Positions 13,392-44,679 of a stretch of DNA of 64,000 nt are shown in pieces (the first letter of the stretch is position 1; every line of letters begins with the position of its first letter). The position numbers and the translations under genes are program-made. The notes below the pieces were generated by a model that was not told where the DNA came from, made no database searches, and saw nothing but the letters and a program-made list of their open reading frames with translations. Source of the DNA: an uncultured Flavobacteriaceae bacterium (GTDB lineage Bacteria > Bacteroidota > Bacteroidia > Flavobacteriales > Flavobacteriaceae); the NCBI GenBank assembly GCA_947500385.1, contig CANMSA010000002.1, positions 186,001 through 250,000 on the forward strand. Reading direction: 5' to 3'.

Positions 13392-16300
13392 TAGGCGGGC
13401 TTTAGTTGTTGGTTTAACAGTTCTTTTACTTCCGGCTTGCAACTACCGCACCCCAAGCCGGCGCCGGTTTGGGAGCACAGAGCGTTAAATTCGGAACAGC
13501 CACCTGCAATGGCTTCCAAGACGTTGCCTTCGCCTACCTGACTGCAGGAACAGATCAACCTACCCTTTAAGGGCGTAGTATTGGTGGCCCCCCGAAGCAA
13601 TTCGTTTCTTTTTTCCGAAAGTTCGATTTCTTCCTCTATCAAGCGTTTGAATTCTGCGAACTCATTTTTATCCCCTATAAGAATGGCTCCTTTCAAAGTA
13701 TCGTCTTTTACAATGCATTTTTTGTAAAAACGCTGGCTTACATCCATCAAAATAATCTCTTCATAACTGTGGTCATTGGCAGGGGTGTTCACCATGCCGA
13801 TGCTACAGAGGTCTAGGTTTTCGAACTTTAAGATGTTCATGAGTACCGAACCATTGTATATACTACTAAGATCACCAAGAATAAAGCGCGCAGCGCTATC
13901 GGCCTGTTGTTCGGCGGCCGAGGTAATACCGAAAAGCTGATTCTTGAATTCGGCAATCTCTCCGAGGGCAAAAATGTTCGGATCGCTGGTCTGTAGATAG
14001 GGGTTTACGATGACACCACGCCTTGTTTCCAGATTCGATTCTTGCGCCAAGGCAATATTGGGTTTGGTGCCAATGGCATAAACAATGGCGTTGCATTGAA
14101 GTGTACGGCCTGTTTTGAGATTTACCAGTAAAGAGTGGGGAGTATCCCTTTCCTCGAAAACCGTACTGACCTCATTGTCAAAATAAATTTGGATTCCACG
14201 CTCGGTCACATCCTCGGCCAAAAGCCTACTGGCCACCTGATCCAATTGCCGTTCCATGAGTCGTGGTGCACGCTGTACTATGCTGATGTTAATGTTTATT
14301 TTTTTGAGGGCGGCAGCCAGTTCCAGCCCTAAAAGTCCGCCGCCTACAATTACGACATGCTGTGAAGGTGCGGGCAATTCAGTGGCTTCCAAATACTGTC
14401 TTAAACGATCGGCATCGCCCCGTTCCCGCATAGTGAAACGCCCTGGTAACTTCATCTGAACTTCGCTAGGTACAAAGGCACTGCTTCCCGTTGCCATGAC
14501 CAAAAGGTCGTAGGCATGCTGGTTTCCCGCGGTATCGGTTACTTTTTTGGCCGCAGCGTCTACCTTCGTAATCCCAATTCCCGCATGCAGGGTAATCTGC
14601 AGCTTTTCAAGCGCTCCTTTTTTGAGCTTTTTCAATGCTTCCCAAGAGAGCTCGTTGCTCACATATTCTGGAAGCAGAACCCGATTGTAAAAAGGGTCTT
14701 TTTCTTTGGAGAAAACAAGAATGGGATCTTTCTTGTTCGTTTCACGATAGGTTTGGACAAAGCGATAGGCCGCGGCCCCGGCCCCGATGATCACTATTTT
14801 CTGGGCAGGCTTTACATATTTTTCGACCTGAACCGCGCAATATTTAAAATCGGGTTCTTTGGAAATGGGATCTACCAGATCATTGGTAATGTTATTGGCT
14901 CGTGCAAAGTTGCTGTTCAAAATTTTGCCCCAATGCATGGGTAAAAACACGACCCCATCTCGAATCTCTGTGCTAATTTTCACTTTCACCTGTACTTTTC
15001 CCCGACGACTTCGAATCACGGCCACATCCCCTTCTTTTAACTTTCGTAGATAGGCATCCACTTTGGTTATTTCTAGATAAGGCATGGGTATGTGGGTAAG
15101 CAACCGTTTCACTTTTCCAGTCTTGGTACGGGTGTGCCACTGATCCCGCACACGACCGGTATTCAGTATTAGCGGAAAATCAACATCGGTTTTTTCCGAT
15201 TCATTGTAGGTACTGGTAGGGGCATTAAAATGTGCTTTTTGATCCGCCGTGTAAAACTGGAGGTCCGTGAAAAGACGAGCCGTACCCGGGTGATCTTTAT
15301 GTGGTACCGGCCATTGAAAACTTCCTTCCTTTTTCAGCCGATCATAGGAGAGGCCCGAAATATCAATATTCGTGCCCTTGGTAAGCAAACAATGTTCCTC
15401 GTATACCTCGCCTGCGTTACGATAGTCGAAACCTTTGAAACCCATTTTTTGTGCAAAACGCCATAAAATTTCAACATCGGGCAATGCTGTTCCGGGGGCG
15501 TCGATTACTTTGGGCAGGTAACTGATCCTACGTTCAGAATTGGTCATGGTACCCTCTTTCTCGAGCCAGCCGGCGGCTGGCAAGAGCAGGTCTGCGAACT
15601 GCGTGGTTTCCGAATGATGCGAAATATCCTGAACCACCACAAAAGCAGCATTTTTCAGGGCCTTGTCTATCTTATGGGCGTTGGGCATGCTCACCGCAGG
15701 ATTGGTACAGATAATCCAAATGGCCTTTAGTTTACCATTTTCCAATGCATCGAACATTTCTGTTGCGGTATACCCCGGGGTCGCCTTGATAGGGCCGCCG
15801 CCCCAAAAGTCTGAAACTTCTTTTCGGTGATCGGGATTACCAAGGTCTTTATGAGCGGCCAATAAGCTGGCCATACCGCCCACTTCCCTTCCTCCCATGG
15901 CGTTCGGTTGGCCGGTCAAGGAAAACGGACCAGCACCTGGTTTCCCTATTTGCCCTGTGAGAAGTGATAGGTTTAGGAGCGAAACGTTTTTAGAAACACC
16001 GATGACACTTTGGTTGAGTCCCATGGTCCACATGCTAATGAACTTGCTGGCATTCCCGATGTAATCCGCTGCTTTTCGAATTGCCGCGGCCTTTATTCCG
16101 CACCTGTCGGCAGCCTGTCGGATGGATAGGCTAAAAGCACTTTCCTTGCATGCTTCAAAATTGGACGTATGTTTTTTTATAAAGCGTTTGTCAACTTTTC
16201 GCTTCTCGATCAACCATCGGGCGATAGCATTAAAGAGAATCACATCGGTCCCCGGTAAAATTTGCAGGTGAAGATCGGCAGAAGCACAACTCTGTGTTTT

Positions 16301-16912
16301 TCTAGGGTCTACCACGATAATTTTTACGTTGGGGTTGGTTTCCTTGCGTTTTTCCAGACGTCGATATAGGATTGGATGACACCAGGCAGGGTTGGCGCCT
16401 GCGATCAAAAAACAATCGGCTAGTTCAATATCTTCGTAGGAGATGGGCACCGAATCTTCTCCCAAGGTTTTTTTATAGCCCACTACGGCCGAACTCATGC
16501 AAAGGCGTGAATTTGTATCGATGTTATTGGTACCAATAAAACCTTTGGTCAATTTGTTTACCAAGTAATATTCCTCGGTAAGGCACTGCCCGGATACGTA
16601 GAAACCAACGCTGTCCGGACCATGTTTTGCAATAATGCTTTTGAACACCGCCGCAGCGCGCTCCAGGGCAGTATCCCATGATACTTTTTGGCGCGGGTGG
16701 TTTCTGCTCCAACGCATTTGAGGATGTAATATACGGTCGCTGGTGTCTTGCGCTACGTAGTTGAGGTTTTTCCCTTTGGAACATAACATCCCTTGGTTGG
16801 TGGGATAGTCGGGATCCCCTTCTACCGAAAGCGTGCCCTTGGTATCTTTGGATACCAAAATACCGCATCCCACACCGCAATAGGAGCATACTGTTTTTTC
16901 TGTTTTCTGCAT
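13391..16912 (-). CDS. Assimilatory nitrate reductase fused to FAD/NAD reductase and BFD [2Fe-2S] domain
   Basis: A 1,173-residue cytoplasmic enzyme reducing nitrate to nitrite. It begins with a 4Fe-4S motif (Cys9, Cys12, Cys16, Cys44), then the molybdopterin oxidoreductase body (about 55-560) and the dinucleotide-binding domain (about 570-690, with NTGRVRDQWHT). A complete pyridine-nucleotide/FAD oxidoreductase follows (about 700-1010, KIVIIGAGAAA and VIVGGGLLGLELA), then a BFD-like [2Fe-2S] domain with CxC and CxxC at 1121, 1123, 1155 and 1158. The added modules resemble the first half of NirB, so electrons from NAD(P)H can enter in one polypeptide. No signal peptide or TAT motif, which fits assimilation. 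Moco synthesis genes are not in the window. A regulatory palindrome lies 54 bp upstream. Confidence 0.95.
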   Translation of the reverse strand: MQKTEKTVCSYCGVGCGILVSKDTKGTLSVEGDPDYPTNQGMLCSKGKNLNYVAQDTSDRILHPQMRWSRNHPRQKVSWDTALERAAAVFKSIIAKHGPDSVGFYVSGQCLTEEYYLVNKLTKGFIGTNNIDTNSRLCMSSAVVGYKKTLGEDSVPISYEDIELADCFLIAGANPAWCHPILYRRLEKRKETNPNVKIIVVDPRKTQSCASADLHLQILPGTDVILFNAIARWLIEKRKVDKRFIKKHTSNFEACKESAFSLSIRQAADRCGIKAAAIRKAADYIGNASKFISMWTMGLNQSVIGVSKNVSLLNLSLLTGQIGKPGAGPFSLTGQPNAMGGREVGGMASLLAAHKDLGNPDHRKEVSDFWGGGPIKATPGYTATEMFDALENGKLKAIWIICTNPAVSMPNAHKIDKALKNAAFVVVQDISHHSETTQFADLLLPAAGWLEKEGTMTNSERRISYLPKVIDAPGTALPDVEILWRFAQKMGFKGFDYRNAGEVYEEHCLLTKGTNIDISGLSYDRLKKEGSFQWPVPHKDHPGTARLFTDLQFYTADQKAHFNAPTSTYNESEKTDVDFPLILNTGRVRDQWHTRTKTGKVKRLLTHIPMPYLEITKVDAYLRKLKEGDVAVIRSRRGKVQVKVKISTEIRDGVVFLPMHWGKILNSNFARANNITNDLVDPISKEPDFKYCAVQVEKYVKPAQKIVIIGAGAAAYRFVQTYRETNKKDPILVFSKEKDPFYNRVLLPEYVSNELSWEALKKLKKGALEKLQITLHAGIGITKVDAAAKKVTDTAGNQHAYDLLVMATGSSAFVPSEVQMKLPGRFTMRERGDADRLRQYLEATELPAPSQHVVIVGGGLLGLELAAALKKININISIVQRAPRLMERQLDQVASRLLAEDVTERGIQIYFDNEVSTVFEERDTPHSLLVNLKTGRTLQCNAIVYAIGTKPNIALAQESNLETRRGVIVNPYLQTSDPNIFALGEIAEFKNQLFGITSAAEQQADSAARFILGDLSSIYNGSVLMNILKFENLDLCSIGMVNTPANDHSYEEIILMDVSQRFYKKCIVKDDTLKGAILIGDKNEFAEFKRLIEEEIELSEKRNELLRGATNTTPLKGRLICSCSQVGEGNVLEAIAGGCSEFNALCSQTGAGLGCGSCKPEVKELLNQQLKPA

Positions 16913-16965: not shown

Positions 16966-16981
16966 TACGTATAAATACGTA
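16966..16981. promoter_or_regulatory. Palindromic operator upstream of nitrate reductase
   Basis: The 16-mer TACGTATAAATACGTA is an inverted repeat TACGTA-N4-TACGTA ending 54 bp before the nitrate reductase ATG. The identical 16-mer occurs before nirB (39166-39181), and near variants lie before nrtA, the globin gene, narK and the orphan response regulator. Geometry (5-bp half-site, N4, G third from the centre gap) is that of Crp/Fnr-family sites. Binding by the FNR-like protein encoded at 35932-36690 is inferred. Confidence 0.75.
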
Positions 16982-26197: not shown

Positions 26198-27490
26198 TTA
26201 CTCTTTTGCGGTATTTAAAAACTTTGGCTTGATCACCAACATGGCCCAAGCCCAGTTTTGACTGCTTGCCGCATCTGCTTCCGAAACACCTTTTAGTTCG
26301 TACATACCATCGCTGGCAAACAATTGGGAGTAACCAATCTTAAGTCCATATCCCTTGAATGATTTGGAAAACACCAAGTCAATTTCAGTACCAAGTGACT
26401 TCTCCCCGCTAGGCAGTTCTTGTTCACCGCTAAAGTTCAATACTTTGACGAGCAGGCTCGATTTTTCGCCCAGTTTAAAATTGGCGCTTGCGTGTATATC
26501 GAACAAGCCTATAGAGTTCGCATGGTTGCCCACGTAGAAATAGTCCATGAATCCGTTAAACTTATGATTGGTACCATAAAGAGGGAAGAAAGCCTCCGTT
26601 TTATCGGTCGTATCGGCCTTGTTCCCGCTAATCAGTTCGGTACCGATGCCCAGGCCGATTTTATCGGTAGCTTTGAAAGAAAGTTCCAGACCAAGTAGGT
26701 AGGCACTGCTCACTTCCACGCTGTTTTGACGCTCCCCTGTTTGTAAAAATGCGTTCAAACTTGCTCCAAAGCCTCCTTTTTTATAGTTGAGGTGTGTTCC
26801 CACGGTTTGTAAGTTGCTAACACCATCTGCCACGCGGGCATCTGCTTCTCCCGTGAAGTTTTGAAACCCATTGTTTAACAGCAACAAACTTCCGGAAAAG
26901 CTGTTCCATTTTTGCTTTAAATAAAGGTATTGCATGGTTTTGTATGTAAAGAAACCAGCAGTATTGAAAGCGGTTCCCACGGATTGAAAGCCAGTAGGAT
27001 TGTCGAAATCCTGACTAAAGGCGAGGCCAACATCCATCATGAATTTTTCGTTGGCATATCTCAGCAAACCGGCATCGTGGTTACGACCTTGCTGAGCCCA
27101 ATCCAAACCTCCAAAAATACGTTGATCGTCATATGAAATAACCTGCCTCCCCAGTTTGGTAGACCAGCCTTTACCGAGATTCAATTTGGCCCATGCCTCA
27201 AAAACGGCGAAAGAATTGTTTTCATCATCAGGGCGTACTTGCCTGTTTTCTCCCCAGACCAATACGTCTTGTAAACTCACATAAAACTCATAAGAATCGA
27301 ATTTGTAACCCGTATTCAAGCGCATTCGGGTAGAAATGGCATATCCGGCGTCGGCGGCATCGGGAATGATACTTCCGAAACCGTGGCGGTATTCGGTTCT
27401 TGGTCTAAACTGCCCATCTAAGGTAAATTGGGATTGGGCAAATTGTATTCCTGCCATTAGCAGGGTAAATAGTATGTATTGCTTTTTCAT
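26198..27490 (-). CDS. Alginate-export-like outer-membrane porin, probable nitrate/nitrite channel
   Basis: A 430-residue protein with signal peptide (AGIQFAQSQF) and a beta barrel of alternating aromatic strands, resembling alginate_exp (AlgE-type) porins: GQFRPRTEYRHG, RMRLNTGYKF, LGRQVISYDDQR. It is the last gene of the nrtABCD-like set, 38 bp after the second ATPase gene and on the same strand. There are no alginate genes nearby, so the most economical reading is an outer-membrane pore feeding nitrate or nitrite to the periplasmic binding lipoprotein. The family is known; this substrate is inferred from the operon. Confidence 0.8.
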   Translation of the reverse strand: MKKQYILFTLLMAGIQFAQSQFTLDGQFRPRTEYRHGFGSIIPDAADAGYAISTRMRLNTGYKFDSYEFYVSLQDVLVWGENRQVRPDDENNSFAVFEAWAKLNLGKGWSTKLGRQVISYDDQRIFGGLDWAQQGRNHDAGLLRYANEKFMMDVGLAFSQDFDNPTGFQSVGTAFNTAGFFTYKTMQYLYLKQKWNSFSGSLLLLNNGFQNFTGEADARVADGVSNLQTVGTHLNYKKGGFGASLNAFLQTGERQNSVEVSSAYLLGLELSFKATDKIGLGIGTELISGNKADTTDKTEAFFPLYGTNHKFNGFMDYFYVGNHANSIGLFDIHASANFKLGEKSSLLVKVLNFSGEQELPSGEKSLGTEIDLVFSKSFKGYGLKIGYSQLFASDGMYELKGVSEADAASSQNWAWAMLVIKPKFLNTAKE

Positions 27491-27528
27491 CGTTTGTTTT
27501 AATTTAAGAGTTAGGATTTAGTAAATGC

Positions 27529-28356
27529 TTAGTGTTCTAAGAAGTCAATTAGGTGTTTTCGATAGGTATAGTAATCGGGGTGGTCCAAGACCGATTTTCT
27601 TGTTCGGGGTCTTTGGAAATCAATGTTTAGGATATCCCCTATTTTAGCCCTTGGGCCACTGGTCATCATGACCACGCGATCGGCAAGAAAAATAGCTTCA
27701 TCAACGTCATGGGTAATCATCACGGCCGTTATCTTCTCTTTGTTCCAGATTTCGATAAGGATGTCCTGTAATTCGCCCCTTGTCAATGAATCGAGCATCC
27801 CAAAAGGCTCGTCTAGCAACAGTACTTTTGGTTTAATAGCAAAGGCTCGAGCGATCCCAACACGCTGTTGCATTCCTTGGGAAAGTTCAGAAGCCTTTTT
27901 ATTAAAAGCCCCATCCAAGCCTACCTTATGTAGGTAGTATTTGGCAATATCTTTTCGTTGTGCTTTGGTTGCATGGGAGAACACCTGGTTAACTCCCAAT
28001 AGTACGTTCTGAAGTGCCGTCATCCAGGGCATTAGACTAGGTGATTGAAAGATAACCCCTCTATCGGGTCCTGGCCCTTTCACGGGATTTCCCAGGACGG
28101 CGATATTGCCCCCGGAAATCGGATTTAAACCGGCAATCATGGATAGCATCGTAGTTTTTCCACAGCCCGAATGCCCAATAATGGTCACAAATTCTTCCTT
28201 CATGATTTGAAGATCCAAGTCTTCGAGGACGACATAGTCTCCCTTAGGGGTGGGGTATACTTTTTTAAGTTTAGAAAGATCCAACATTACTTTGGAAGGA
28301 TACAAAATGCCATTTTCCGAAGTTCCCCGGGCCGTATCGATAGTTGCTGTATTCAT
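27529..28356 (-). CDS. nrtD: Nitrate ABC transporter ATP-binding protein (NrtD-like)
   Basis: A 275-residue ATPase with Walker A GHSGCGKTT, signature ELSQGMQQRVGIA (Gln in place of the usual Gly), Walker B VLLLDEPFGMLD and a normal switch histidine in MITHDVDEAI. It belongs to the nitrate/sulfonate/taurine class of importers. It partners the second ATPase (28374-29213), the permease and the binding protein, all on the same strand with short gaps. Unlike cyanobacterial NrtC there is no binding-protein-like C-terminal domain. The nrtC/nrtD labels of the two ATPases could be swapped. Confidence 0.88.
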   Translation of the reverse strand: MNTATIDTARGTSENGILYPSKVMLDLSKLKKVYPTPKGDYVVLEDLDLQIMKEEFVTIIGHSGCGKTTMLSMIAGLNPISGGNIAVLGNPVKGPGPDRGVIFQSPSLMPWMTALQNVLLGVNQVFSHATKAQRKDIAKYYLHKVGLDGAFNKKASELSQGMQQRVGIARAFAIKPKVLLLDEPFGMLDSLTRGELQDILIEIWNKEKITAVMITHDVDEAIFLADRVVMMTSGPRAKIGDILNIDFQRPRTRKSVLDHPDYYTYRKHLIDFLEH

Positions 28357-28373
28357 CTTGTTTTCTTTTAGGG

Positions 28374-29213
28374 TTAGGCTACAAAGCTTTTGGGGGCAAT
28401 CTCGGGCAATACGTATTCTGTGGCGCTGACCGATTTTCGCTCTTCTCCGATATCCATCAAATACGCGATAATGGCGTTTCGTGTTTTTTTATAGTTCGGG
28501 TTGTCGTTCAGGGCGGTCTTGTCCCTGGGGCGATCAATAGCTATCTTGAATTCGGGCCCTAAAGTGGCATTTGGCCCTGGTTTCAAGGGGATGATACGAT
28601 CTGCCATATAAATACCCTCATCCACATCGTTGGTAATGAGCAGGGCGGTGCGTTTGTCCTTGCTCCAGATGTGCAAGATTTCATCCTGTAGATTACCCCT
28701 TGTCAAGGCATCCAAGGCGCCTAGCGGTTCGTCCATAATGATCATCTCGGGGTCCATGGCGAGCGCCCTTGCGACCGCGACTCGTTGGCGCATACCCCCG
28801 GATAACTCTTTGGGCCTTTTGTTGAAGGCAGGAGTGAGGTTCACCATGTCGACATAGTCTCTTACCCGTTGGTTCAAAACACTTTTTTTCTCTTTGGGAA
28901 AGGCCTCTTTTACTGCCATATACACATTTTGGCCCACCGTAAGCCAGGGCAAGAGGGAGTAATTTTGGAAAATGACCCCCCGTTCGTGACTGGTGTCAAT
29001 GACCGGCTTTCCTTTAAACAGTACCTCTCCGCTGGTGGGTTTTAAGAGGCCGTTGATAAGATTTACCAAGGTCGTTTTTCCACTGCCGGTAAAGCCGACA
29101 ATTGCTACAAATTCGCCTTCTTCGATTGTGAGGTTTATATTTGATAGTACTTCGGTACTATCTGTTCCTTCCCCATAGGTTTTATAAACATTGTTAAGCT
29201 CTAAATATGCCAT
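28374..29213 (-). CDS. nrtC: Nitrate ABC transporter ATP-binding protein (NrtC-like, switch His replaced by Asn)
   Basis: A 279-residue ATPase with Walker [10 protein letters not shown], a canonical signature [13 protein letters not shown] and Walker [13 protein letters not shown]. The switch (H-loop) position reads [10 protein letters not shown], Asn where almost all ABC ATPases have His (codon AAC on the coding strand). The partner ATPase keeps His but has an imperfect signature, so the pair looks like an asymmetric heterodimer with one strong site. It drives nitrate import in the NrtABCD complex on the cytoplasmic face. Gap to the other ATPase gene is 17 bp. Confidence 0.88.
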
Positions 29214-29306
29214 GCTGTTTTGTTTTTGAATGTTGCAAAGTCTTTTTTAAGCCTCATACTGTGTTCGCCAGTCCTGTTTGAAGGCACAGGGGCTCAATTG
29301 CTCATT

Positions 29307-30407
29307 TTAAACGGCCTCATTTTTGTTGAACGATACCATATTCTGAACGGTTAACATGAATCTGTCTAACAAGAAACCAATGATACCGATGACAAACATG
29401 GCCACGATAATTTTTGAGTTTGAATCGTTGGCGCCGTTTTGAAACTCTTCCCATACAAACAATCCCAAACCTTGGCTTTGCGCCAAGAGTTCAATGGCGA
29501 TCAATACCATCCATGCAACCGAAAGCGTAATGCGCAATCCTGTAAAGATCAAGGGCAGGGAGGAGGGAAGAATCACCTTAAAAACTTTTTGAAATGTCCC
29601 TAGCTTTAACACTTTGGCAACGTTGATATAGTCTTTGTCTACCGAGGATACGCCCATTGCAGTGTTTACCAAGGTGGCCCACATAGCGCACAACCCAACG
29701 CTGATAAAGGAAATGACAAAGGCATTGTCCGTGCTGTCCCCGATATACAGGGTTTTTACGATCATGAAAACCAACAAATACCAAACCACGGGCGATACGG
29801 GTTTGAACACTTGAATAAACCAGTTGAACGCACTTCGTAGTGGAGCACTCAGTCCAATGATTATACCAATCGGTACTGCTATTAGCAATGCCAGTAAAAA
29901 GCCTGCAAAAACGGTTCTAATACTGGTGAAAACAATGTCGATAAAGGAGGCCCTACCGGTGTAGACGATGGGGTCTTTCCCCTTGGCCGTAAGCTTGGCA
30001 TTGGTAGCGGCCATTTTTTCTACAAAAGCAGCCTTGTCCGCTTTGATGATTTTATGGTCCGCAATCAGCGATTGCAGTGAGGCCCATACCTGTGAAGGGG
30101 AAGGCAAGGTATTTGGCTGGCAACTACTATCTCCCGACGCGATACAGGCCCGTTCGGCGGCAGCGGCCTCGGCTCCTCGCTCGGTCAATGCTTTTTCAAT
30201 CTTATAATCGGCCTCCACATCGTAGAGCGCTTTTGCGCCCCAGTGCCAAAGGCCTATGAATAGTAGAATTGAAATAACGGTGATACCGGTTTTCTTTAAA
30301 GACCCCAATAGGTCGCCTCGATTGAATTTTGGCGTGAGCTTTGCCACCAGTGGCTTTACGAACGAAAAGGGTTGACGGTCTTTTTTTAAGATGATTTCTT
30401 GCTCCAT
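29307..30407 (-). CDS. nrtB: Nitrate ABC transporter permease
   Basis: A 366-residue integral membrane protein of the BPD_transp_1 class. It has an N-terminal transmembrane helix (about 38-55), an 80-residue periplasmic insert with two cysteines (CIASGDSSC), then the usual five- to six-helix permease core with an EAA-like loop (VAKVLKLGTFQKVFKVILPSSL) for ATPase contact. The insert makes it longer than cyanobacterial NrtB (about 280). The gene lies between the binding protein (32 bp gap) and the ATPase genes (93 bp gap), completing the importer. Confidence 0.9.
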   Translation of the reverse strand: MEQEIILKKDRQPFSFVKPLVAKLTPKFNRGDLLGSLKKTGITVISILLFIGLWHWGAKALYDVEADYKIEKALTERGAEAAAAERACIASGDSSCQPNTLPSPSQVWASLQSLIADHKIIKADKAAFVEKMAATNAKLTAKGKDPIVYTGRASFIDIVFTSIRTVFAGFLLALLIAVPIGIIIGLSAPLRSAFNWFIQVFKPVSPVVWYLLVFMIVKTLYIGDSTDNAFVISFISVGLCAMWATLVNTAMGVSSVDKDYINVAKVLKLGTFQKVFKVILPSSLPLIFTGLRITLSVAWMVLIAIELLAQSQGLGLFVWEEFQNGANDSNSKIIVAMFVIGIIGFLLDRFMLTVQNMVSFNKNEAV

Positions 30408-30439
30408 GATGTTATTTTTTTGCTTCGATTTGTACTTTT

Positions 30440-31825
30440 TTAATCCTTGTTTCCGATGGTGAAACTGTTGATGTACCCGATAGGGTCTTTGGCGTCATAG
30501 GCGGTACCGTCTATAAAGTCGGTTGTTGCAGGCTTATATCCATCGGTATCTGGAATATCGCTTGCCGGGATTTGCCCTTCGGCGACCAATAGGTCGGCAG
30601 CTTTTTTCCAGATGTCGGGTCGGTAAATGTCCTTGATGGTCTCGCTGTACCATTCGGCCGTTTTGGTTTCTGGGATTTGCCCCCACCGACGCATTTGGGT
30701 AAGGAACCAGATACCATCGGAGTAGAACGGATATGTGGCGTTGTACTTATAAAAAACATTGAAATCCGGCATAGATCGCTTGTCCCCTTTTTCAAATTCG
30801 AAGGTACCGGTCATTGAATTGGCCAATACTTCTTCGGGAGCACCTACGTATTGAGACATTGACAGGATTTTAACTGCCTCGGGGCGGTTCGCGGGATCGT
30901 CTAACCATTTCCCTGCACGAATCAAAGCCTTGGTTACGGCAATGGCGGTATTTGGGTTGTCTTCTACAAATTTCTTGGTCATGACAAATACTTTTTCTGG
31001 ATTGTTTTTCCAGATGTCGTAGTTGGTGGTCACCGGCACCCCGATTCCTTTGAATACCGCTTGCTGGTTCCAAGGCTCACCTACACAATACCCATAAATG
31101 GTTCCAGATTCCAAGGTGGCCGGCATTTGGGGTGGCGGGGTTACCGATAGCAATACTTCGGCATCTATTTGACCCTGTACATTTTCGGCCGTATACATCC
31201 CGGGATGAATACCGGCGGCCGCCAACCAGTATCGTATTTCATAGTTGTGCGTGGAAACAGGGAATACCATTCCCATTTTAAAAGGCTTCCCGCTATTTTT
31301 GTAGCTAGTAATTACTGGTTTTAAGGCATCTGCTTTAATAGGGTGTATGGGCTTACCTGCATCGTCCTTGGGAACATTTGGCTTCATTTTAGACCAAACA
31401 TCGTTGGAAACCGTAATACCGTTTCCGTTTAGATCCATAGAGAAGGGAGTCACCAGCTCGGCTTGTCTTCCAAATCCGGCACCAGCGGCAATGGGCTGCC
31501 CGGCTAGCATGTGCGAACCATCTAATTGACCATCAATAACACGGTCTAACACATTTTTCCAGTTGGATTGTGCTTCTACGGAAACAAACAGCCCTTCCTC
31601 TTCGAAGAACCCTTTTTCTTTCGCAATGGCCAAGGGGGCCATGTCCGTTAATTTGATGAACCCGAACGAGAGTTGTGGTTTTTCGATATCCAAGGTGGCG
31701 GTCTGTGAGGTACTTTCCGTGGTTTCTTCTGTGGCTTCGGCCTTTTTGGCCTCTTTCCCTCCGCAAGCGAATAACGTCATCGCTAGCAAGGCTATCATGG
31801 TCGCTTTTGTCAAGGTTGTCTTCAT
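30440..31825 (-). CDS. nrtA: Nitrate-binding lipoprotein of the CmpA/NrtA family
   Basis: A 461-residue lipoprotein (MTLFAC lipobox, Cys21) followed by an acidic, Thr-rich linker and a two-lobe binding fold ([21 protein letters not shown] at the start; the core [13 protein letters not shown] is typical of CmpA/NrtA). Tethered in the periplasm, it captures nitrate or nitrite for the permease. It is the first gene of the operon nrtA-nrtB-nrtC-nrtD-porin. A palindromic operator sits 22 bp before its ATG, matching those of the nitrate and nitrite reductase genes. Bicarbonate (CmpA) specificity is unlikely given the neighbours. Confidence 0.92.
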
Positions 31826-31847: not shown

Positions 31848-31863
31848 TACGTATTTATACTTA
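31848..31863. promoter_or_regulatory. Palindromic operator upstream of nrtA
   Basis: TACGTATTTATACTTA: TACGTA-N4-TACTTA, one half identical to the nitrate reductase and nirB sites and the other to the globin site. It lies 22 bp upstream of the nrtA start. A further TACGTA half-site occurs at 31879-31884. Confidence 0.65.
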
Positions 31864-32129: not shown

Positions 32130-32840
32130 CTACTGTTTTTGTAGTGTTTTTATCCATTCAGGTTCAGAAAGTCCAAGGTATTTTTTGTTGGTCCCGAAGG
32201 GGTCTTTCCCCCCGTCAAGATACACTTGAATTGTACGAAGTGGAATAGTGTCTTTAAGATTTTTAGGAACATCGTAGGTATGATTTCCATGAAAATCATG
32301 GCATTGAATACAAGTAGACCACTGGTTTTGGGCAACAAGTTGTACATGGGATACATCAAGGGGGTCGTCCTCGATTTGAAGATCTTGATGACAGTTCATG
32401 CAGTAGTCGATAGGGTAGATCGTAACGCGCTTCTCTTTGTGTTCGGTATGACACGTAATACAGGTGGTTGCATTTACCACCCGGATGGCTTCTTTGAATC
32501 GGGGCTCCGAAAACCGGTAGGTAGGGTGACGATCGTTAGGTCGGTCATGACAGGCAAGGCAGTTGGCCACCGTAACGTCCTGTGTTCCGAAATCAACAGG
32601 GTTTTTACGCATACCTAAGGTATGTGCCAAATTGGATTGTAGCTGTTGTGATAGATTCCCCTTTGCATCGACATGACAGGCAACACATGATAGCTCTTCA
32701 TGCCCTGTATTCAGAGGTCCCAGTGAAACATATTGCTCAGAAGAATCCAAGGACAGCAGTCCGAAAAGAACAAGCCCTACAAAGCCGCCGATCATACCTC
32801 CCCAGAATTGTCTTTTGCGTAATGGATTTACCTTAAACAT
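32130..32840 (-). CDS. Membrane-anchored pentahaem cytochrome c
   Basis: Start is set at the ATG at 32840, 13 bp after the upstream stop, giving 236 residues beginning MFKVNPLRKRQFWGG. A cytoplasmic stub and one transmembrane anchor (GGFVGLVLFGLL) precede a periplasmic domain with five CxxCH haem sites: CVACH, CLACH, CITCH, CMNCH and CIQCH, plus extra histidines for bis-His ligation. It resembles NapC/cytochrome c3-type electron carriers. It is the last gene of the globin operon, so it probably takes electrons from the dihaem b protein and FAD reductase encoded just upstream. No catalytic haem site (CxxCK) is visible. Confidence 0.88.
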   Translation of the reverse strand: MFKVNPLRKRQFWGGMIGGFVGLVLFGLLSLDSSEQYVSLGPLNTGHEELSCVACHVDAKGNLSQQLQSNLAHTLGMRKNPVDFGTQDVTVANCLACHDRPNDRHPTYRFSEPRFKEAIRVVNATTCITCHTEHKEKRVTIYPIDYCMNCHQDLQIEDDPLDVSHVQLVAQNQWSTCIQCHDFHGNHTYDVPKNLKDTIPLRTIQVYLDGGKDPFGTNKKYLGLSEPEWIKTLQKQ

Positions 32841-32853
32841 CACTATCAGTTGA

Positions 32854-33882
32854 TTAAACGGCAATAACAATATGTTCACTTGCCGGATAACTCACACAGG
32901 TAAGTATTTTACCGGCATCTACCTCTTCTTCCGATAACAAATGTCCTTCGGTCATTGTTATTTCTCCCGAGAGGCATGTAGCCTTGCAGGCAGCACACAT
33001 GCCAGACCTGCACGAATAGGGAAGTGCTACGTTCTTGGCCATGGCCGCCTGAAGAATAGATTTGTTCCCTGCAATTTGTAGTTGATGGTTGTTGCCCTTC
33101 AGTCGAATCTCTACCTGACTCAAGGGTTTTTTACCACTTTTTACGAGGGTAGGGCGTTTGAAAAGTTCCACCTTAATTTTATTTGGGGAGACCCCGTTCA
33201 CATGAAGTATGCTTTTTACCGCTTCCATAAAACCAAATGGACCGCAAATCATATACAAACCATCATCGAAAGTGAGGCCATATTCCGTGAAGAGCTCTTC
33301 GACAAGTGCATCGGTAATAAAACCCTTGAAGTAGTTGGTGCCGCTCATGGTGCTATGGGAGAGCAGATGTGCAACTCGCAGGCTACCCTTATATTTTGCC
33401 TCCAGTGCCTGCAATTCCTTTCTGAAAATAATGGCTTCGAGATTATGGTTGGCATAAATGAGGGTAATCTTTGATTTGGGCTCCCTTGTTAGGATCGAAT
33501 TAATAATCGAAAATATGGGAGTTATGCCACTACCCCCCGCAAAGAACTTATATTCACGTTGTTGTTTTTTTGCAGGTTCAATAAAGAAACTTCCATTTGG
33601 CCGCGCTACCAAAAGTGAGTCCCCTATTTTAAGTTCGTCATGAATATAGTTGGACACGAGTCCTTTTTCGACCCTTTTAACGGTAATTTTTAGGTCCTTA
33701 TCTGTAAATGGGTTGCTGCTAAAAGAGTACGCCCTTTTGTGCACCTGCCCAGCAATGTTAAAATCGAAGGTCATGAACTGACCGGGTTTATAGCTCAGTT
33801 TCTTGAACAGACGGCCATTCTTAAAACAGACACTAACCGTATCTGCCGTCTCCCTTATGATATCTTTGATGACTAATTTCAT
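32854..33882 (-). CDS. FAD/NAD(P) reductase with plant-type [2Fe-2S] ferredoxin domain
   Basis: A 342-residue soluble flavoprotein. FAD site RAYSFSS (about 50-56), NAD(P) site FFAGGSGITPIFSIIN (about 113-128), and a C-terminal plant-type ferredoxin with YSCRSGMCAACKATC and a last cysteine in ILTCVSYP (C-x4-C-x2-C). This order matches phenylacetate-hydroxylase-type and HCP-type reductases. In flavohaemoglobin (Hmp) an FAD/NAD module is fused to a globin; here a separate globin gene starts the same operon, so it may reduce the globin, the dihaem b protein (8 bp upstream), or both. Which acceptor is used cannot be told from sequence. Confidence 0.9.
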   Translation of the reverse strand: MKLVIKDIIRETADTVSVCFKNGRLFKKLSYKPGQFMTFDFNIAGQVHKRAYSFSSNPFTDKDLKITVKRVEKGLVSNYIHDELKIGDSLLVARPNGSFFIEPAKKQQREYKFFAGGSGITPIFSIINSILTREPKSKITLIYANHNLEAIIFRKELQALEAKYKGSLRVAHLLSHSTMSGTNYFKGFITDALVEELFTEYGLTFDDGLYMICGPFGFMEAVKSILHVNGVSPNKIKVELFKRPTLVKSGKKPLSQVEIRLKGNNHQLQIAGNKSILQAAMAKNVALPYSCRSGMCAACKATCLSGEITMTEGHLLSEEEVDAGKILTCVSYPASEHIVIAV

Positions 33883-33890
33883 AGCGCTGT

Positions 33891-34370
33891 TTATTTATAG
33901 TAAAATACCGTTCCAACGTGGAAGAATACTAAGATGGTGATCACTGCGGAAAAAGCGACGTGGGCAATCATCCATCCTTTGAACAACCATTCTTTCTCAT
34001 TTTTGATGAGGTCAAGATTTATATATCCCAAGAGGGTATTCGTGAGAAATAGATATGCCAATAATGCCAGATATCCATATCCAAGGCCCATACTATGGAG
34101 GTAAAAAAGAAGCGGACTTAAAGCGCCTGCCCATTTATGCATTTGGTTCATTTTTAGTGCATGCCGCCTTAGTTTTTTTACTACCCTGCTCATACTTAAA
34201 ACCCATTGAAAGCAAATAAAGAGGGCTAGCAATAAACCTGACCATCTTTTATATGATTCTTCTTGTTGTAAGAACCATAACCATGACCATTCCCATTGGA
34301 AGAAATACTGTGCTAAAAAGAGGGCCATTAAAATCAACCCGATGAGGGAGGTTAGCTTCGTATTTTTCAC
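33891..34370 (-). CDS. Four-helix dihaem cytochrome b-like membrane protein
   Basis: A 159-residue protein, almost entirely four transmembrane helices. Two helices each carry a histidine pair with identical spacing: HKWAGALSPLLFYLH and HVAFSAVITILVFFH, both H-x13-H. That is the bis-histidyl dihaem pattern of cytochrome b and ferric-reductase-type membrane domains, so two b haems stacked across the membrane are expected. No flavin domain is attached, but an FAD/2Fe-2S reductase gene follows 8 bp downstream. The start is GTG at 34370. Expected role: carry electrons across the inner membrane to periplasmic c haems. Confidence 0.8.
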   Translation of the reverse strand: MKNTKLTSLIGLILMALFLAQYFFQWEWSWLWFLQQEESYKRWSGLLLALFICFQWVLSMSRVVKKLRRHALKMNQMHKWAGALSPLLFYLHSMGLGYGYLALLAYLFLTNTLLGYINLDLIKNEKEWLFKGWMIAHVAFSAVITILVFFHVGTVFYYK

Positions 34371-34409
34371 AGCGGTCGCTTTAAGGGTTAATGTATGGCC
34401 TCGGCGCGC

Positions 34410-35240
34410 CTATTTGCCGGCTACCAAGGCTTTCATCGTCTCATAGGAAGATAGTTTGCGAACACTGTCTAGAAATACTTCAGGAGAAGGAAGGTAATTC
34501 CCCTCCGCGGGCCATTTATCACCTATACTGGGTTTTTTAGCAGTTTTAAAAGCCGCTATCTCATCTAAATAGGCCATATAGATATCTACGGTACCTTTGG
34601 CATAAGCATTTAACACTTCTACCGTCGCTTTATAAGTGAGAGAGTCCTTGGGGTATTGCCAAGTGGTCGCCCCCATGACATCACCGAGCTTCCAATCTGA
34701 CTTTGCAGTTTGCGGATGCTCGTTGTGGCAGGTTACACACGCTTGAGCACTTGCAAGGTCGGCGAACATGGCGGTATGCAGTTTTTGGGAATCGTCAAAA
34801 AAGAATTGTGGTTCTTCCGTTTCTTTGATTTCCGAGAAGAGCTCGGCTTGTTGCCCTTCAAATTTATTGGCATTGTTAATTGGGAAATCGGAACCCAGAT
34901 ACAACCCCAAGGGCACCGGGCTTTTTCGAATGCTCGTAGCTACTCCTCTTAGGAAAAGTGCCGGCAGAGGTCCGGCTTCCACTTCGTCTTTCCGCCAGTC
35001 CTCATCGAACTTCATGCCTTGAAGCTTTCCTTTCCCCACGATGGCCTTTGTATATAAAGTTCGAGTAACATCATTTTCCTTGGCCACCATTTCGAGCACT
35101 TCGGCTACTGAAAATACATTTTCTTCTGCCATGTTGTTTTCAGAGGTCTCCTCGGGGACCCCTCCACAAGCGTTTAGAAGTAAGTAGCTAAGTACAAGTA
35201 CGGTAATGGTGATTATAGGTTTTTTCTCCAGACTTTTCAT
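34410..35240 (-). CDS. DUF3365 (Tll0287-like) haem c lipoprotein
   Basis: A 276-residue lipoprotein (LLLNACGG lipobox) with a DUF3365 domain: the haem c site ACVTCHNEHP followed by SDWKLGDVMGA, the family signature. Such domains bind one c haem and are thought to sense redox state or gases, or to pass electrons. Located in the periplasm or on the membrane face, it is encoded 30 bp after the globin gene and 39 bp before the dihaem b gene. It could be the periplasmic sensor/acceptor of this chain. Family function is not settled. Confidence 0.87.
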   Translation of the reverse strand: MKSLEKKPIITITVLVLSYLLLNACGGVPEETSENNMAEENVFSVAEVLEMVAKENDVTRTLYTKAIVGKGKLQGMKFDEDWRKDEVEAGPLPALFLRGVATSIRKSPVPLGLYLGSDFPINNANKFEGQQAELFSEIKETEEPQFFFDDSQKLHTAMFADLASAQACVTCHNEHPQTAKSDWKLGDVMGATTWQYPKDSLTYKATVEVLNAYAKGTVDIYMAYLDEIAAFKTAKKPSIGDKWPAEGNYLPSPEVFLDSVRKLSSYETMKALVAGK

Positions 35241-35270
35241 AAGCGATAGATTTTTAAGTTGAACAATGGG

Positions 35271-35684
35271 TTAATTTGCAGCGCCTATCATTACCGAGGA
35301 CATGGTTCCGTATACCTGGGTCCATGCTTCTTTAACTTCTAAAGTAAAATCATCTCCCAATCCGGTTTCCAAGGTGCCTAAAAGAGCGGCCCCCACAGTT
35401 GCATAATGCGAAGGCTCCACCTTGTATTCCACATGGCGTTTTCCTAGACTTTCCAGAACCGGGACCAACATGTCCAAATCGTTTAATCCGGCCACTGCAC
35501 TGGCCAACATGCTCATGAGTTTGTTTCCCTGTGAAGCCATGGCTTCGTCCCCTGAAGGAAACAGCGCCTCTAAAGAAGGGTCTAATTCAAAAAGTTTGCT
35601 ATAAAATATTTTAGCTGCCGTAGGTGCGATCGGTTTTACTTTTTCAAAGGATTTCTGAACAAGGTCAATGGTGGTCTGTTCCAT
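35271..35684 (-). CDS. Single-domain globin of the flavohaemoglobin type
   Basis: A 137-residue globin without signal peptide. The proximal haem ligand is His84 in GKRHVEYKVEPSHY. The distal pocket has Tyr28 (B10, KIFYSKLF) and Gln52 (E7, ASQGNKLM), the pair used by flavohaemoglobins to turn NO and O2 into nitrate. It lacks the reductase half, which is provided by a separate gene in the operon. First gene of the globin-DUF3365-dihaem b-reductase-pentahaem operon; a perfect operator palindrome lies 40 bp upstream. Likely role: NO removal during nitrate/nitrite reduction. O2 delivery, as for Vitreoscilla globin, is the alternative. Confidence 0.92.
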   Translation of the reverse strand: MEQTTIDLVQKSFEKVKPIAPTAAKIFYSKLFELDPSLEALFPSGDEAMASQGNKLMSMLASAVAGLNDLDMLVPVLESLGKRHVEYKVEPSHYATVGAALLGTLETGLGDDFTLEVKEAWTQVYGTMSSVMIGAAN

Positions 35685-35724: not shown

Positions 35725-35740
35725 TAAGTATAAATACTTA
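35725..35740. promoter_or_regulatory. Palindromic operator upstream of the globin operon
   Basis: TAAGTATAAATACTTA is a perfect inverted repeat TAAGTA-N4-TACTTA with the same spacer and geometry as TACGTATAAATACGTA before nitrate reductase and nirB. It ends 40 bp before the globin ATG and is the only strong palindrome in the 247-bp gap. Confidence 0.68.
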
Positions 35741-35931: not shown

Positions 35932-36690
35932 CTAACTATCGAGGTAGAAATTGTGTTCGGAAATTTCTTTTTTGAGCAAAGCAAGGTGTACAATACCGAT
36001 ACGTTTGCCCTTTGTAGTAATCAGTTGTTCTTTTTTTAGCGCCGATAAAACCCGAATTACCTGCTCCTCGGTGGTACCGGCATAATCGGCATATTCTCGT
36101 CTGCTCAAGACCAGGGCAATAAAGCCGTTCTGTTGCCCAAACTTTCGGTTAACATACAATAAGGTGTCGATGACCCGCTCGCGAACGGTCATTTGCGAAA
36201 GTGATTTTACCTTGGCTTCGCTTTTGTTTAGTTCATTGGCATAAAAGAGCATAAGATCATAGGTAAAGGTCGGGGCAGTATGCAGCACTTCTTGGAGTAG
36301 ATCTTTTGAGAAGTAGCAAAGTAAGGAGTCTTCCAGGGCAATGGCCCCGATAGGATAAGATTCTTCTGTGCCAAAACCGCGATGGCCGATTACCTCCCCC
36401 TCTTTGGCGAAGCGTACAATTTGTTCCTTACCATGTAACCCGGTGCGTAATACTTTTACCGTACCCTTTAACAAAAAGAAAAGCCCTGTGACCGGCGCCC
36501 CTTCCATAATGAATTGCTGCCCCTTTTTACAGCGTATTTCTTTTCGGTGTTTTGTAAAGATCCTAACTACGGGTGAAGGAAGGTTTTTGTTGATCAAACA
36601 TTTCTTGTTTGTGCAACTGGTACATGCAGTGGTAATCAAAGAGGTTTCCCGTTGATCGATCGAGGCGCTATTTGAATAGGATGATATCAC
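35932..36690 (-). CDS. FNR-like Crp/Fnr regulator with complete iron-sulfur cysteine set
   Basis: A 252-residue Crp/Fnr protein. N-terminal Cys23, Cys26 and Cys31 (ACTSCTNKKC) plus Cys125 (ALEDSLLCYFSK) align with Cys20, Cys23, Cys29 and Cys122 of E. coli FNR in both spacing and local context, so an O2- or NO-sensitive [4Fe-4S] cluster is expected. The cyclic-nucleotide-like fold (about 45-150) and a winged helix follow, with recognition helix TTEEQVIRVLSAL keeping the Glu and Arg that contact the G/C pair of FNR sites. GTG start at 36690, 14 bp after narK in one operon. Probable regulator of the palindromes in this cluster. Confidence 0.88.
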   Translation of the reverse strand: MISSYSNSASIDQRETSLITTACTSCTNKKCLINKNLPSPVVRIFTKHRKEIRCKKGQQFIMEGAPVTGLFFLLKGTVKVLRTGLHGKEQIVRFAKEGEVIGHRGFGTEESYPIGAIALEDSLLCYFSKDLLQEVLHTAPTFTYDLMLFYANELNKSEAKVKSLSQMTVRERVIDTLLYVNRKFGQQNGFIALVLSRREYADYAGTTEEQVIRVLSALKKEQLITTKGKRIGIVHLALLKKEISEHNFYLDS

Positions 36691-39087: not shown

Positions 39088-39165
39088 AGTATCAATCGTT
39101 AGGGTCATATTTTACCAAATCCACAACAAGAATACGTAATTATTCCGATATAATTACTAATAAAA

Positions 39166-39181
39166 TACGTATAAATACGTA
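39166..39181. promoter_or_regulatory. Palindromic operator in the cobA-nirB divergent promoter
   Basis: TACGTATAAATACGTA, identical over all 16 bases to the site before nitrate reductase at 16966-16981. It lies 29 bp before the nirB ATG and about 80 bp before cobA, so one bound dimer could act on both. A TACGTA half-site also occurs at 39133-39138, nearer cobA. Confidence 0.75.
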
Positions 39182-42193: not shown

Positions 42194-42201
42194 TATCTTT
42201 G
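42194..42201 (+). promoter_or_regulatory. Possible Bacteroidota -7 promoter element
   Basis: TATCTTTG matches the Bacteroidota -7 consensus TAnnTTTG exactly and lies 18 bp before the ATG of the DUF4202 gene. The -33 element is weak. It could be an internal promoter for the downstream half of the nirB operon. Confidence 0.35.
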
Positions 42202-42219
42202 AAAAAAGAAACGAAGCGT

Positions 42220-42837: not shown

Positions 42838-44679
42838 ATGACCAACGGGAAACATAACGGATCACTCGATACGGCCACCTTTTTAAGGATCCGTAAATGG
42901 TACCTTTGGGCATTGGCCGCGATTGCGTTGACCATCATCATTGCCCAAGTATTGATCCAGTTACATCTAAATTCCCAATTGAACGACTCCCGGGTCATTA
43001 ATGTAGCGGGACGGCAACGGGCATATAGCCAAAAACTGGTTAAGGAGGCCTTATTGCTGCGAAAAACAACCAACAGTGATGAACGTAGCATGGTAATCGC
43101 TGAAATTCGTAAAACGCTTACTGTTTGGAAAGCCTCGCACGAAGGACTTCAATTTGGCGCCGATAGTTTAAACCTGCCCGTTGAGGACGATGCCATTATT
43201 TTAAGTTTGTTTACGGCCCTGGAGCCCCATCATTCAGCAATGGTCGCAGCGGGGGAACAGCTCTTGAATGGGGAAGATTCCGGCAGCAACATGCCCGAAG
43301 AAGCCTTTGATTCGTATGTCTCCGTGCTTTTGTCGAATGAGCGGCCGTTTCTACGGTTGATGGATACCATAGTGAACGAGTATGACATCCGTAGTAAGGA
43401 ACAATTACAAAATTTAAAACAGAAGGAATATTGGTTGTTGGCATTTTCATTGTTACTGCTGTTGCTCGAAATGCTTTTCATTTTTAGGCCTTTGGCGATT
43501 CAAATACGCAATACGATTACCGATTTAATGCGCAGTCGCTTAAAGTCGGATGCCCATGCCAATGAGATTCAAGAACTGTTTACCGAAAAAGAGAAATCCT
43601 TAAAGGAACTTCAGGAGCTAAACTTTGTGATAGACAATGCAGCGCTATTTGCCAGCGCCCGGAAAGACGGGAGCATTGTATTTATGAGCAAAAAGTTTAT
43701 GACCCTGCTCGGATTGTCGGAAGAAGATCTATCCAAAAAACTATCCGAAGTACTCACTATCGATGAGGGGCAGCAAGCGTATCTCAAGGAAGTATTAAGA
43801 GCCAATCGAAAGAACGTAATACGTACCGAAGAAATAAAGGTCACGGCTGTTTCGGGAGCGGAGTTTTGGTTGGATATGTCTATCGTACCCATCCATCAAT
43901 CTAGTCGAGAGCAGAGTATCTTAATTCTCTGCTCCGATAGTACCGAACGAAAAAGAAATTTGTTGAAAGTGGAGCAGCTTACCCAACAGAATTTTGAAGA
44001 ACGCATGCTACAGAAAAAGCTGCAAGCGAGTCAAATTGTAGAAGGGCAAGAAGAAGAACGAAAACGCATCGCCAAGGATATTCATGACGGCATCGGCCAG
44101 ATGCTTACCGCCTTAAAGTTTAATATCGAATCCATTGATCCGGGTAATACTGAAAAAACCACCGAGAAAATAGCATATCTAAAGGAGCTTACTTCCGATT
44201 TGATCAAAGGGGTTCGCACAGCGACTTTCAATTTGACCCCGCCCGAACTAAGCGATCACGGCATTTTCCCGGCACTTCATAAAATGACCGTAGAATTGTC
44301 GAAACTGACCGGAAAAACAATTCTATTTGAAAACAAGACCGCCGAAAACATCCGTTTTGATTCCCTTGCGGAAACAAATATTTATAGGGTTACCCAAGAA
44401 GCTGTGAACAATGCGATCAAGTATTCGCATGCGAATTATATCTTAGTCACCATCAACTATAAAGATGCGATTTTAAGTGTGCTTATAGATGATGATGGGA
44501 AGGGCTTTGATGCGAATATCCTAGAAGAAGTTCCCAAAAACAACAGTGAAGGCGGTATGGGTCTTTTTTATATGAAAGAACGCATCAGTTATATCAATGG
44601 GCGTTTGTTCATTCATTCCGAACCGGGCAAGGGTACTCGTGTCACCATCAATTATAAAACTGAAAAAAGAACGAATTAA
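42838..44679 (+). CDS. NarX-like nitrate/nitrite sensor histidine kinase (PilJ-type sensor, PAS, HisKA_3)
   Basis: A 613-residue membrane kinase. Transmembrane helix 1 (about 22-44) is followed by a periplasmic four-helix domain starting RVINVAGRQRAYSQKL, matching the P-box of NarX/PilJ-type nitrate sensors. Then come helix 2 (about 197-219), a coiled coil, a PAS domain (about 260-375), the HisKA_3 dimerisation motif ERKRIAKDIHDGIGQ with His416, and the ATPase domain (TQEAVNNAIKYSHAN, DDDGKGFD, GGMGLFYMKERI). It should sense periplasmic nitrate or nitrite. No response regulator is adjacent; the orphan NarL-type regulator at 20977 is the best partner. Its stop abuts the ATG of the next gene. 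Confidence 0.93.
   Translation: MTNGKHNGSLDTATFLRIRKWYLWALAAIALTIIIAQVLIQLHLNSQLNDSRVINVAGRQRAYSQKLVKEALLLRKTTNSDERSMVIAEIRKTLTVWKASHEGLQFGADSLNLPVEDDAIILSLFTALEPHHSAMVAAGEQLLNGEDSGSNMPEEAFDSYVSVLLSNERPFLRLMDTIVNEYDIRSKEQLQNLKQKEYWLLAFSLLLLLLEMLFIFRPLAIQIRNTITDLMRSRLKSDAHANEIQELFTEKEKSLKELQELNFVIDNAALFASARKDGSIVFMSKKFMTLLGLSEEDLSKKLSEVLTIDEGQQAYLKEVLRANRKNVIRTEEIKVTAVSGAEFWLDMSIVPIHQSSREQSILILCSDSTERKRNLLKVEQLTQQNFEERMLQKKLQASQIVEGQEEERKRIAKDIHDGIGQMLTALKFNIESIDPGNTEKTTEKIAYLKELTSDLIKGVRTATFNLTPPELSDHGIFPALHKMTVELSKLTGKTILFENKTAENIRFDSLAETNIYRVTQEAVNNAIKYSHANYILVTINYKDAILSVLIDDDGKGFDANILEEVPKNNSEGGMGLFYMKERISYINGRLFIHSEPGKGTRVTINYKTEKRTN

Follow-up and report, generated by a model that had tools for sequence, protein, structure and literature searches.

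The window analysed here is a stretch of 64,000 nucleotides from an uncultured Flavobacteriaceae bacterium (GenBank assembly GCA_947500385.1, contig CANMSA010000002.1, positions 186,001 to 250,000), and our subject is a cassette of five close genes within it, for which an earlier note on this DNA had proposed a split flavohaemoglobin coupled to a transmembrane haem chain. The open reading frames of the window and their domain matches confirm the five genes exactly where that note had placed them, on the minus strand from 35684 to 32130. In order they encode a globin (glb), a Tll0287-like lipoprotein (Tll), a membrane protein with putative b haems (b4), a reductase (FNR) and a pentahaem cytochrome c (cytc5), with coordinates collected in Table 1. 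The gaps between them measure 30, 39, 8 and 13 bp when cytc5 is taken to start at the ATG at 32840 (MFKVNPLRKRQ). This is most likely the true start, in place of the GTG at 32879 chosen by the open-reading-frame finder, because the aligned relatives begin alike; the GTG would make FNR and cytc5 overlap.

In order to find relatives, a collection of genomes was scanned with two conserved strings as the query, which returned 92 stretches, 80 of them kept; with such a query, distant relatives outside the family may be missed. Nearly all relatives are titled Flavobacteriaceae, with strains of Maribacter, Algibacter and Tamlana among those named, and two are titled only as Bacteroidia or Cytophagales metagenome-assembled genomes (L056, L107). 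As the 103 loci with b4 contained duplicates of the same genomes, the counts were redone on 87 distinct loci. The complete five-gene order is kept in 73 of these. A further 13 hold Tll, b4, FNR and cytc5 in order with no globin upstream, although at least two of them (L045 and L107) begin too close to a contig end for the globin to be judged, and one divergent locus (L043, in genome G229) has reductase and cytochrome fused in one gene, after which come Tll and b4. The conservation of order on which the proposal of the earlier note was to be checked is thus borne out. Among 299 genomes of the family b4 is present in 24, and a search with the most divergent copy of Tll found the same 24 and none other at E<=1e-06 (Fisher 6e-36 for the pair, with kinship ignored). 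These patterns support the view that the five genes form one co-inherited set.

The b4 protein carries the two H-x13-H pairs described in the earlier note, H78/H92 and H137/H151, and all four histidines are invariant in the 24 aligned members. That note had described a four-helix protein; the AlphaFold2 model (mean predicted local distance difference test score, pLDDT, 86.6) contains five long hydrophobic helices, and together with the loop charges it points to five membrane-spanning helices instead. The histidine pairs lie in the third (65-92) and the fifth (127-157) predicted helix. The loop that joins helices 2 and 3 has a mean net charge of +4.6, therefore H78 and H137 would lie on the inside and H92 and H151 on the outside. 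The N-terminus would be inside and the C-terminus outside, with both H-x13-H helices running from inside to outside. Two bis-His pairs spaced by 12-14 residues in two helices are the mark of NOX proteins and ferric reductases (PMC5676040), and their placement in helices three and five agrees with this in prediction. These proteins have six membrane helices, one more than predicted for b4, and in NOX proper a dehydrogenase is fused to the C-terminus, whereas here it is encoded by a separate gene and the C-terminus of b4 is predicted to be outside. The ferric reductase family PF01794 is matched at E<=0.1 by 20 of the 24 members (best 4e-05), and the b4 sequence profile matched no solved chain. 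Although the homology is weak, b4 probably belongs with NOX and MsrQ as a split relative that has five helices.

A wider search covered 395 genomes of the phylum. At E<=1e-12 the cytc5 profile matched only the genome of the window itself, while the b4 profile gave five further weak, partial matches. One of these (L128) fell in another frame and was discarded as fortuitous. The other four are a longer H-x13-H protein of other Bacteroidota, encoded beside multihaem cytochromes, which matches b4 over the last 30 residues (92.6%); no Pfam match was found in the two such proteins tested. The four loci (L125, L126, L127 and L129) make up a separate kind of module, with genes for a Crp-like/4Fe-4S protein, the H-x13-H membrane protein and a large multihaem cytochrome.

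FNR matches the Pfam domains FAD_binding_6, NAD_binding_1 and Fer2 and scores best with the PaaE-type reductases, at 243 bits against a cut-off of 420.8. Its neighbour cytc5 has five CxxCH motifs and matches multihaem c families, and its sequence profile matched no solved chain. Eleven histidines are invariant in the 16 aligned sequences, five within the CxxCH motifs and six free; the latter can serve as distal ligands, which by count would be enough for five bis-His haems. In the divergent locus L043 the reductase and the pentahaem cytochrome are a single 571-aa chain, encoded next to b4 and Tll, and this fusion is the strongest single sign that FNR and cytc5 work together. Two further apparent fusions (L048 and L080) proved to be artefacts of alignments extending past a stop codon, so that L043 alone is real. 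No fusion of globin and reductase was seen in the loci examined. The reductase is thus a 2Fe-2S, PaaE-like protein whose only fusion partner seen is cytc5, in a genome devoid of the globin. As this fusion binds it to the chain, "split flavohaemoglobin" is the less well supported part of the name given to the system in the earlier note.

The lipoprotein Tll exceeds the cut-off of PF11845 (33.5 bits against 24.1 in the window), the family is matched by all 19 relatives at E<=0.01, and a single CxxCH haem c motif is invariant in these 19. The protein of the window contains no cysteine besides those of the lipobox and the CxxCH, and none occurs outside the N-terminal region and the CxxCH in any of the 19; the axial cysteine of the Tll0287-like Cys/His redox subgroup is therefore not found. 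Against solved chains, the Tll sequence profile gave nothing better than E 0.68. In a 2026 preprint, cited here from part of its text, the Tll0287/DUF3365 family is renamed sCache_heme, and a signalling member without the axial cysteine is described as binding nitric oxide (NO) (PMC12889525). Tll shares with these proteins the PF11845 domain with one CxxCH. It differs from the stand-alone members whose study is described in that part of the preprint, which have a Cys/His haem, in having no such cysteine and an electron chain alongside. Since no cysteine is available to the haem, its site in Tll may be open.

The globin was described in the earlier note as lacking a reductase, and it is indeed a protein of 137 aa on its own: no FAD/NAD reductase is fused to it, and the Hmp model gives 78.7 bits against 432. 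Its closest solved chain is 3s1i (1.3e-31), and 1vhb and others also match. The pocket set of flavohaemoglobin-type globins comprises Tyr B10, Gln E7, His F8, Tyr G5 and Glu H23. In glb the pocket residues Tyr28, Gln52, His84 and Tyr94 are invariant in 14 of 14 aligned sequences. Sequence and Tyr/Gln/His/Tyr pocket resemble those of Vgb, Cgb and Hell's Gate globin I; unlike these, glb is co-inherited with a membrane chain. A single-domain globin is present in 23 of the 24 genomes with b4 and in 2 of the 30 that have NrtA without b4 (Fisher 6e-12, again with kinship ignored), and it is this co-occurrence that appears to link the globin to the chain. Frames of Hmp length, as judged by length, are found alike in both groups (3/24 and 2/30), hence the cassette does not simply replace Hmp. 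In four Aquimarina loci (L082, L106, L111, L117) the chain is present and two globin genes lie nearby on the opposite strand.

The five genes form an optional block of some marine flavobacteria, usually found between an FNR-type crp gene and nrtA. In the two sets of cassette-bearing loci, crp upstream together with nrtA downstream was found in 18 of 23 and in 46 of 80, many of the remainder being cut by contig ends or rearranged. For comparison, the surroundings of nrtA were inspected in 19 of the 30 genomes with nrtA and without b4. In 13 of these 19 cassette-free relatives, a distance of 244 to 439 bp separates crp from nrtA downstream of it, and no gene of the block lies in between; the others have the globin alone (L135), a 3.7-kb gap (L146) or, in four cases, no match to crp within the stretch. 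In a tree built from 39 NrtA proteins the presence of the block is scattered and requires 12 changes (shuffled labels: mean 13.4, with 139 of 500 shuffles as low as 12), and at least four changes are forced by well-supported branches. Thus, it can be concluded that the block was gained or lost repeatedly.

Nitrate genes accompany the block throughout. NrtA occurs in 54 of the 299 genomes, including all 24 with b4, and each of these 24 also has NirB and a NasC-like enzyme (in two pieces in G271). NapA and NrfA are each found in 14 of the 24; seven, the genome of the window among them, have neither. This distribution points to nitrate assimilation and not to respiration. "NasC-like" is our own label, because both NCBIfam scores of the nitrate reductase of the window (formate dehydrogenase 577 bits, NasC 523 bits) fall under their cut-offs.

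The earlier note had also supposed an operator common to the block and the nitrate genes, which proves real, although relatives were needed to show it. In the window, the outer edge of the palindrome TAAGTAT-NN-ATACTTA lies 55 bp before glb and 37 bp before nrtA. The window alone holds two sites within one mismatch of AAGTATNNATACTT, a borderline result, as 4 of 100 shuffles also reached two. In distinct cassette loci, an operator of at least 11/12 precedes glb in 57 of 79 and nrtA in 56 of 67, against a background of about 1% of mononucleotide-shuffled upstream regions. Besides the weaker copies listed in Table 1, one of 9/12 precedes narK. Both crp and the operators are also kept in relatives without the cassette. 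Inverted heptamers in a 7-2-7 arrangement resemble NarL sites, and the window encodes a NarX/NarL-like pair of a kinase and a response regulator, with genes about 21 kb apart. This pair of a PilJ-type kinase and a LuxR-type regulator is the likely reader of the operator. Wherever a locus has a crp match of 50% identity or more, the crp product shows the FNR-like motif CxxCx4C (92 of 92 loci, duplicates retained), and this regulator may sense O2 or NO.

Table 1. Positions in the window of the cassette genes, the operators and the neighbouring genes.
Feature	Position	Strand	Remarks
glb	35271..35684	-	single-domain globin; Pfam Globin 1.7e-18
Tll	34410..35240	-	Tll0287-like (DUF3365, sCache_heme) lipoprotein, 276 aa; PF11845 6.7e-08
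b4	33891..34370	-	159-aa di-haem b protein of the membrane; five helices predicted
FNR	32854..33882	-	FAD / NAD(P)H / 2Fe-2S reductase, 342 aa, PaaE-like
cytc5	32130..32840	-	pentahaem cytochrome c of 236 aa, periplasmic with an N-terminal anchor; five CxxCH
7-2-7 palindromic operator (AAGTATAAATACTT, within TAAGTAT-NN-ATACTTA)	35726..35739	.	before glb
same 7-2-7 operator	31849..31862	.	before nrtA
weaker operator copy, 10/12	39167..39180	.	between divergent nirB and cobA
weaker operator copy, 10/12	16967..16980	.	before nitrate reductase gene
crp	35932..36690	-	Crp/Fnr-family regulator, N-terminal CxxCx4C; upstream cassette border
nrtABCD and outer-membrane porin	26198..31825	-	nitrate-type ABC transporter; NMT1_2 3.9e-97, BPD_transp_1, ABC_tran twice, Alginate_exp; downstream border of block
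nitrate reductase gene	13391..16912	-	probable assimilatory nitrate reductase fused to NirB-like NADH-reductase part; Molybdopterin, Pyr_redox_2, Fer2_BFD
narK	36705-38126	-	NarK 305.2 bits vs cut-off 311.7
cobA	38314-39108	-	CobA over cut-off
nirB	39211-41715	+	NirB over cut-off; divergent from cobA
PilJ-type histidine kinase	42838..44679	+	with LuxR-type response regulator
LuxR-type response regulator	20977-21648	-	with PilJ-type histidine kinase

Judged by architecture alone, the core of Tll, b4, FNR and cytc5 probably forms a transmembrane electron-export chain. The earlier note had suggested that electrons of cytoplasmic NAD(P)H travel by way of b haems to c haems, and the motifs, the predicted topology and the fusion of reductase and pentahaem cytochrome all support this path. 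In this scheme, NAD(P)H would reduce FAD and then the 2Fe-2S cluster on FNR in the cytoplasm, and FNR would pass electrons to the inner b haem of b4 (H78/H137) and on to the outer one (H92/H151). From there they would reach the anchored bis-His pentahaem cytochrome cytc5 in the periplasm and, finally, the single haem of the Tll lipoprotein. The globin would remain cytoplasmic and form a second arm that binds O2 and NO. NO might then be countered on both sides of the membrane, by the Tll haem in the periplasm and by the globin inside.

The statement that no complex with exactly these parts had been described stands in so far as we recognised none in the open-licence papers searched. Near precedents had been overlooked, namely MsrQ/Fre and the bacterial NOX for the chain and Bjgb/Flp for a globin encoded within an operon of nitrate assimilation. 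MsrQ/Fre, according to the sections of PMC5676040 drawn on here, likewise combines a separate soluble flavin reductase, a membrane di-haem core and a periplasmic acceptor. It has six helices and feeds the molybdoenzyme MsrP, whereas the cassette has five predicted helices, c-type haems as acceptors and a 2Fe-2S reductase encoded in the operon. In the same sections, the bacterial NOX (SpNOX) carries its bis-His pairs in helices three and five, as predicted for b4, and directly reduces cytochrome c (PMC5676040). NOX unites six helices and the dehydrogenase in one chain, while the cassette is split and ends in dedicated cytochromes. As for the globin, the consulted part of PMC4724949 reports that nitrate assimilation in Bradyrhizobium yields NO, against which a single-domain globin and a flavin reductase protect; both are encoded in the operon narK-bjgb-flp-nasC. 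Here too, globin and reductase genes lie inside a nitrate-assimilation regulon, as indicated by their position between crp and nrtA and by the operator. That part of the paper describes no membrane haem chain, which the cassette has, and according to it Flp also serves nitrate reductase (PMC4724949), whereas the nitrate reductase gene of the window bears its own NirB-like part.

By analogy with Bradyrhizobium, we tentatively read the cassette as an optional, nitrate-regulated unit of an electron-export chain and a globin for defence against NO or a related nitrogen oxide during nitrate use, with a probability that falls a little short of even. Its more specific form is rather doubtful: a mobile accessory block of the flavobacterial nitrate regulon for two-compartment NO defence, in which a cysteine-less sCache_heme, driven by NAD(P)H by way of the split five-helix NOX-like core and the pentahaem wire, would be the periplasmic NO scavenger or reductase and the globin its cytoplasmic counterpart. 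Several observations weigh against one part or another of this reading. For the window's own b4, PF01794 gives only E 0.044 (14.3 bits against a cut-off of 28), an hhalign comparison of the b4 profile with five local PF01794 members was negative (0.5%), and a Foldseek search of the PDB with the b4 model found no match at E<=0.001. The same fold search was equally negative for Tll, whose model has a mean pLDDT of only 72. The part of the preprint considered here assigns stand-alone Tll0287-type domains a redox and not an NO role, and in it a P. putida protein with the cysteine removed bound NO only weakly (PMC12889525). Since that removal gave no tight binding, loss of the cysteine is not sufficient for NO binding. 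In the window, position 134 of the globin, which we take to be GluH23, is occupied by Gly; 7 of the 14 aligned sequences have Glu there, so the Glu is not conserved. When the association of globin and chain was tested on independent branches, four supported pairs gave p 0.125. Scans for Sigma-70-type promoters and terminators, which bear on co-transcription, showed no excess over shuffles. Finally, the variant chain of G229 is on the same contig as the nitrate genes but away from them, and this genome has no single-domain globin of this kind.

The reading has to be set against four other explanations. If FNR were chiefly the reductase of the globin and the membrane proteins were a separate matter, one would expect what is seen in 73 of the 87 loci, where both genes share a putative operon, as well as the co-occurrence of globin and chain; Bjgb/Flp is a precedent, Flp having been proposed as the reductase of Bjgb (PMC4724949). 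We nevertheless consider this unlikely, as G229 fuses FNR to cytc5 and not to a globin of this kind, which it lacks, 13 loci keep FNR and the chain with no globin upstream in the stretch (L045 and L107 being limited by contig ends), and FNR bears a 2Fe-2S domain. Less likely still is a chain that feeds the periplasmic respiratory nitrate and nitrite reductases NapA and NrfA. Genes for NapA, NapB, NapG-like and NrfD-like proteins, or for NrfA with a cytochrome c assembly protein, do adjoin crp in several relatives, and NapA and NrfA each occur in 14 of the 24 genomes. The explanation ranks low because the seven genomes with neither, including that of the window, have the cassette all the same; moreover, the cassette-free L136 and L145 also carry a Nap cluster, and these Nap clusters bring their own NrfD-like quinol module.

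About equally improbable is a redox or NO sensor relay, with Tll as the receptor and electron flow as the signal to the kinase or the FNR-type Crp. It would suit the immediate neighbourhood of crp in most loci and the FNR-like cysteine motif of its product, and the part of the preprint used describes Tll0287 domains as NO sensors when they are joined to signalling modules (PMC12889525). However, a pentahaem wire with an NAD(P)H reductase exceeds the needs of a sensor, the cassette has no signalling domain, and crp and the operators persist where the cassette is missing. The least probable of the four is general electron export, that is extracellular or ferric reduction or a NOX-like reduction of O2. 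A motif layout like that of NOX and MsrQ beside a multihaem cytochrome would fit it, and related membrane parts serve in iron reduction in the passages of PMC8238504 cited here. Yet the nitrate genes are constant companions (24/24), and no outer-membrane multihaem conduit was noticed in the cassette.

Should the proposed NO defence be correct, it would present a NOX-like machine that delivers its electrons to a dedicated relay of c haems in place of O2 or a molybdoenzyme, and it would define the electron donor of a stand-alone Tll0287/DUF3365 protein. Nitrate-assimilating marine bacteria would then guard both sides of the membrane against NO. As the block is present or absent at one site among relatives, its function is open to test through a comparison of close relatives or a single clean deletion.

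Some neighbouring genes deserve mention in their own right. Adjoining the nitrate reductase gene, and beside it in several relatives too, is a gene (11949-13442) whose product combines a nitrite/sulfite-reductase ferredoxin half domain with a rubredoxin at the C-terminus. Near crp, loci such as L031, L033 and L025 have either a napA-napB-tetrahaem-NapG-like-NrfD-like series or nrfA together with a gene for cytochrome c assembly of the ResB/CcsA type. A DUF4202 protein that is conserved in relatives is encoded at 42199-42810, in the interval from nirB to the kinase gene.

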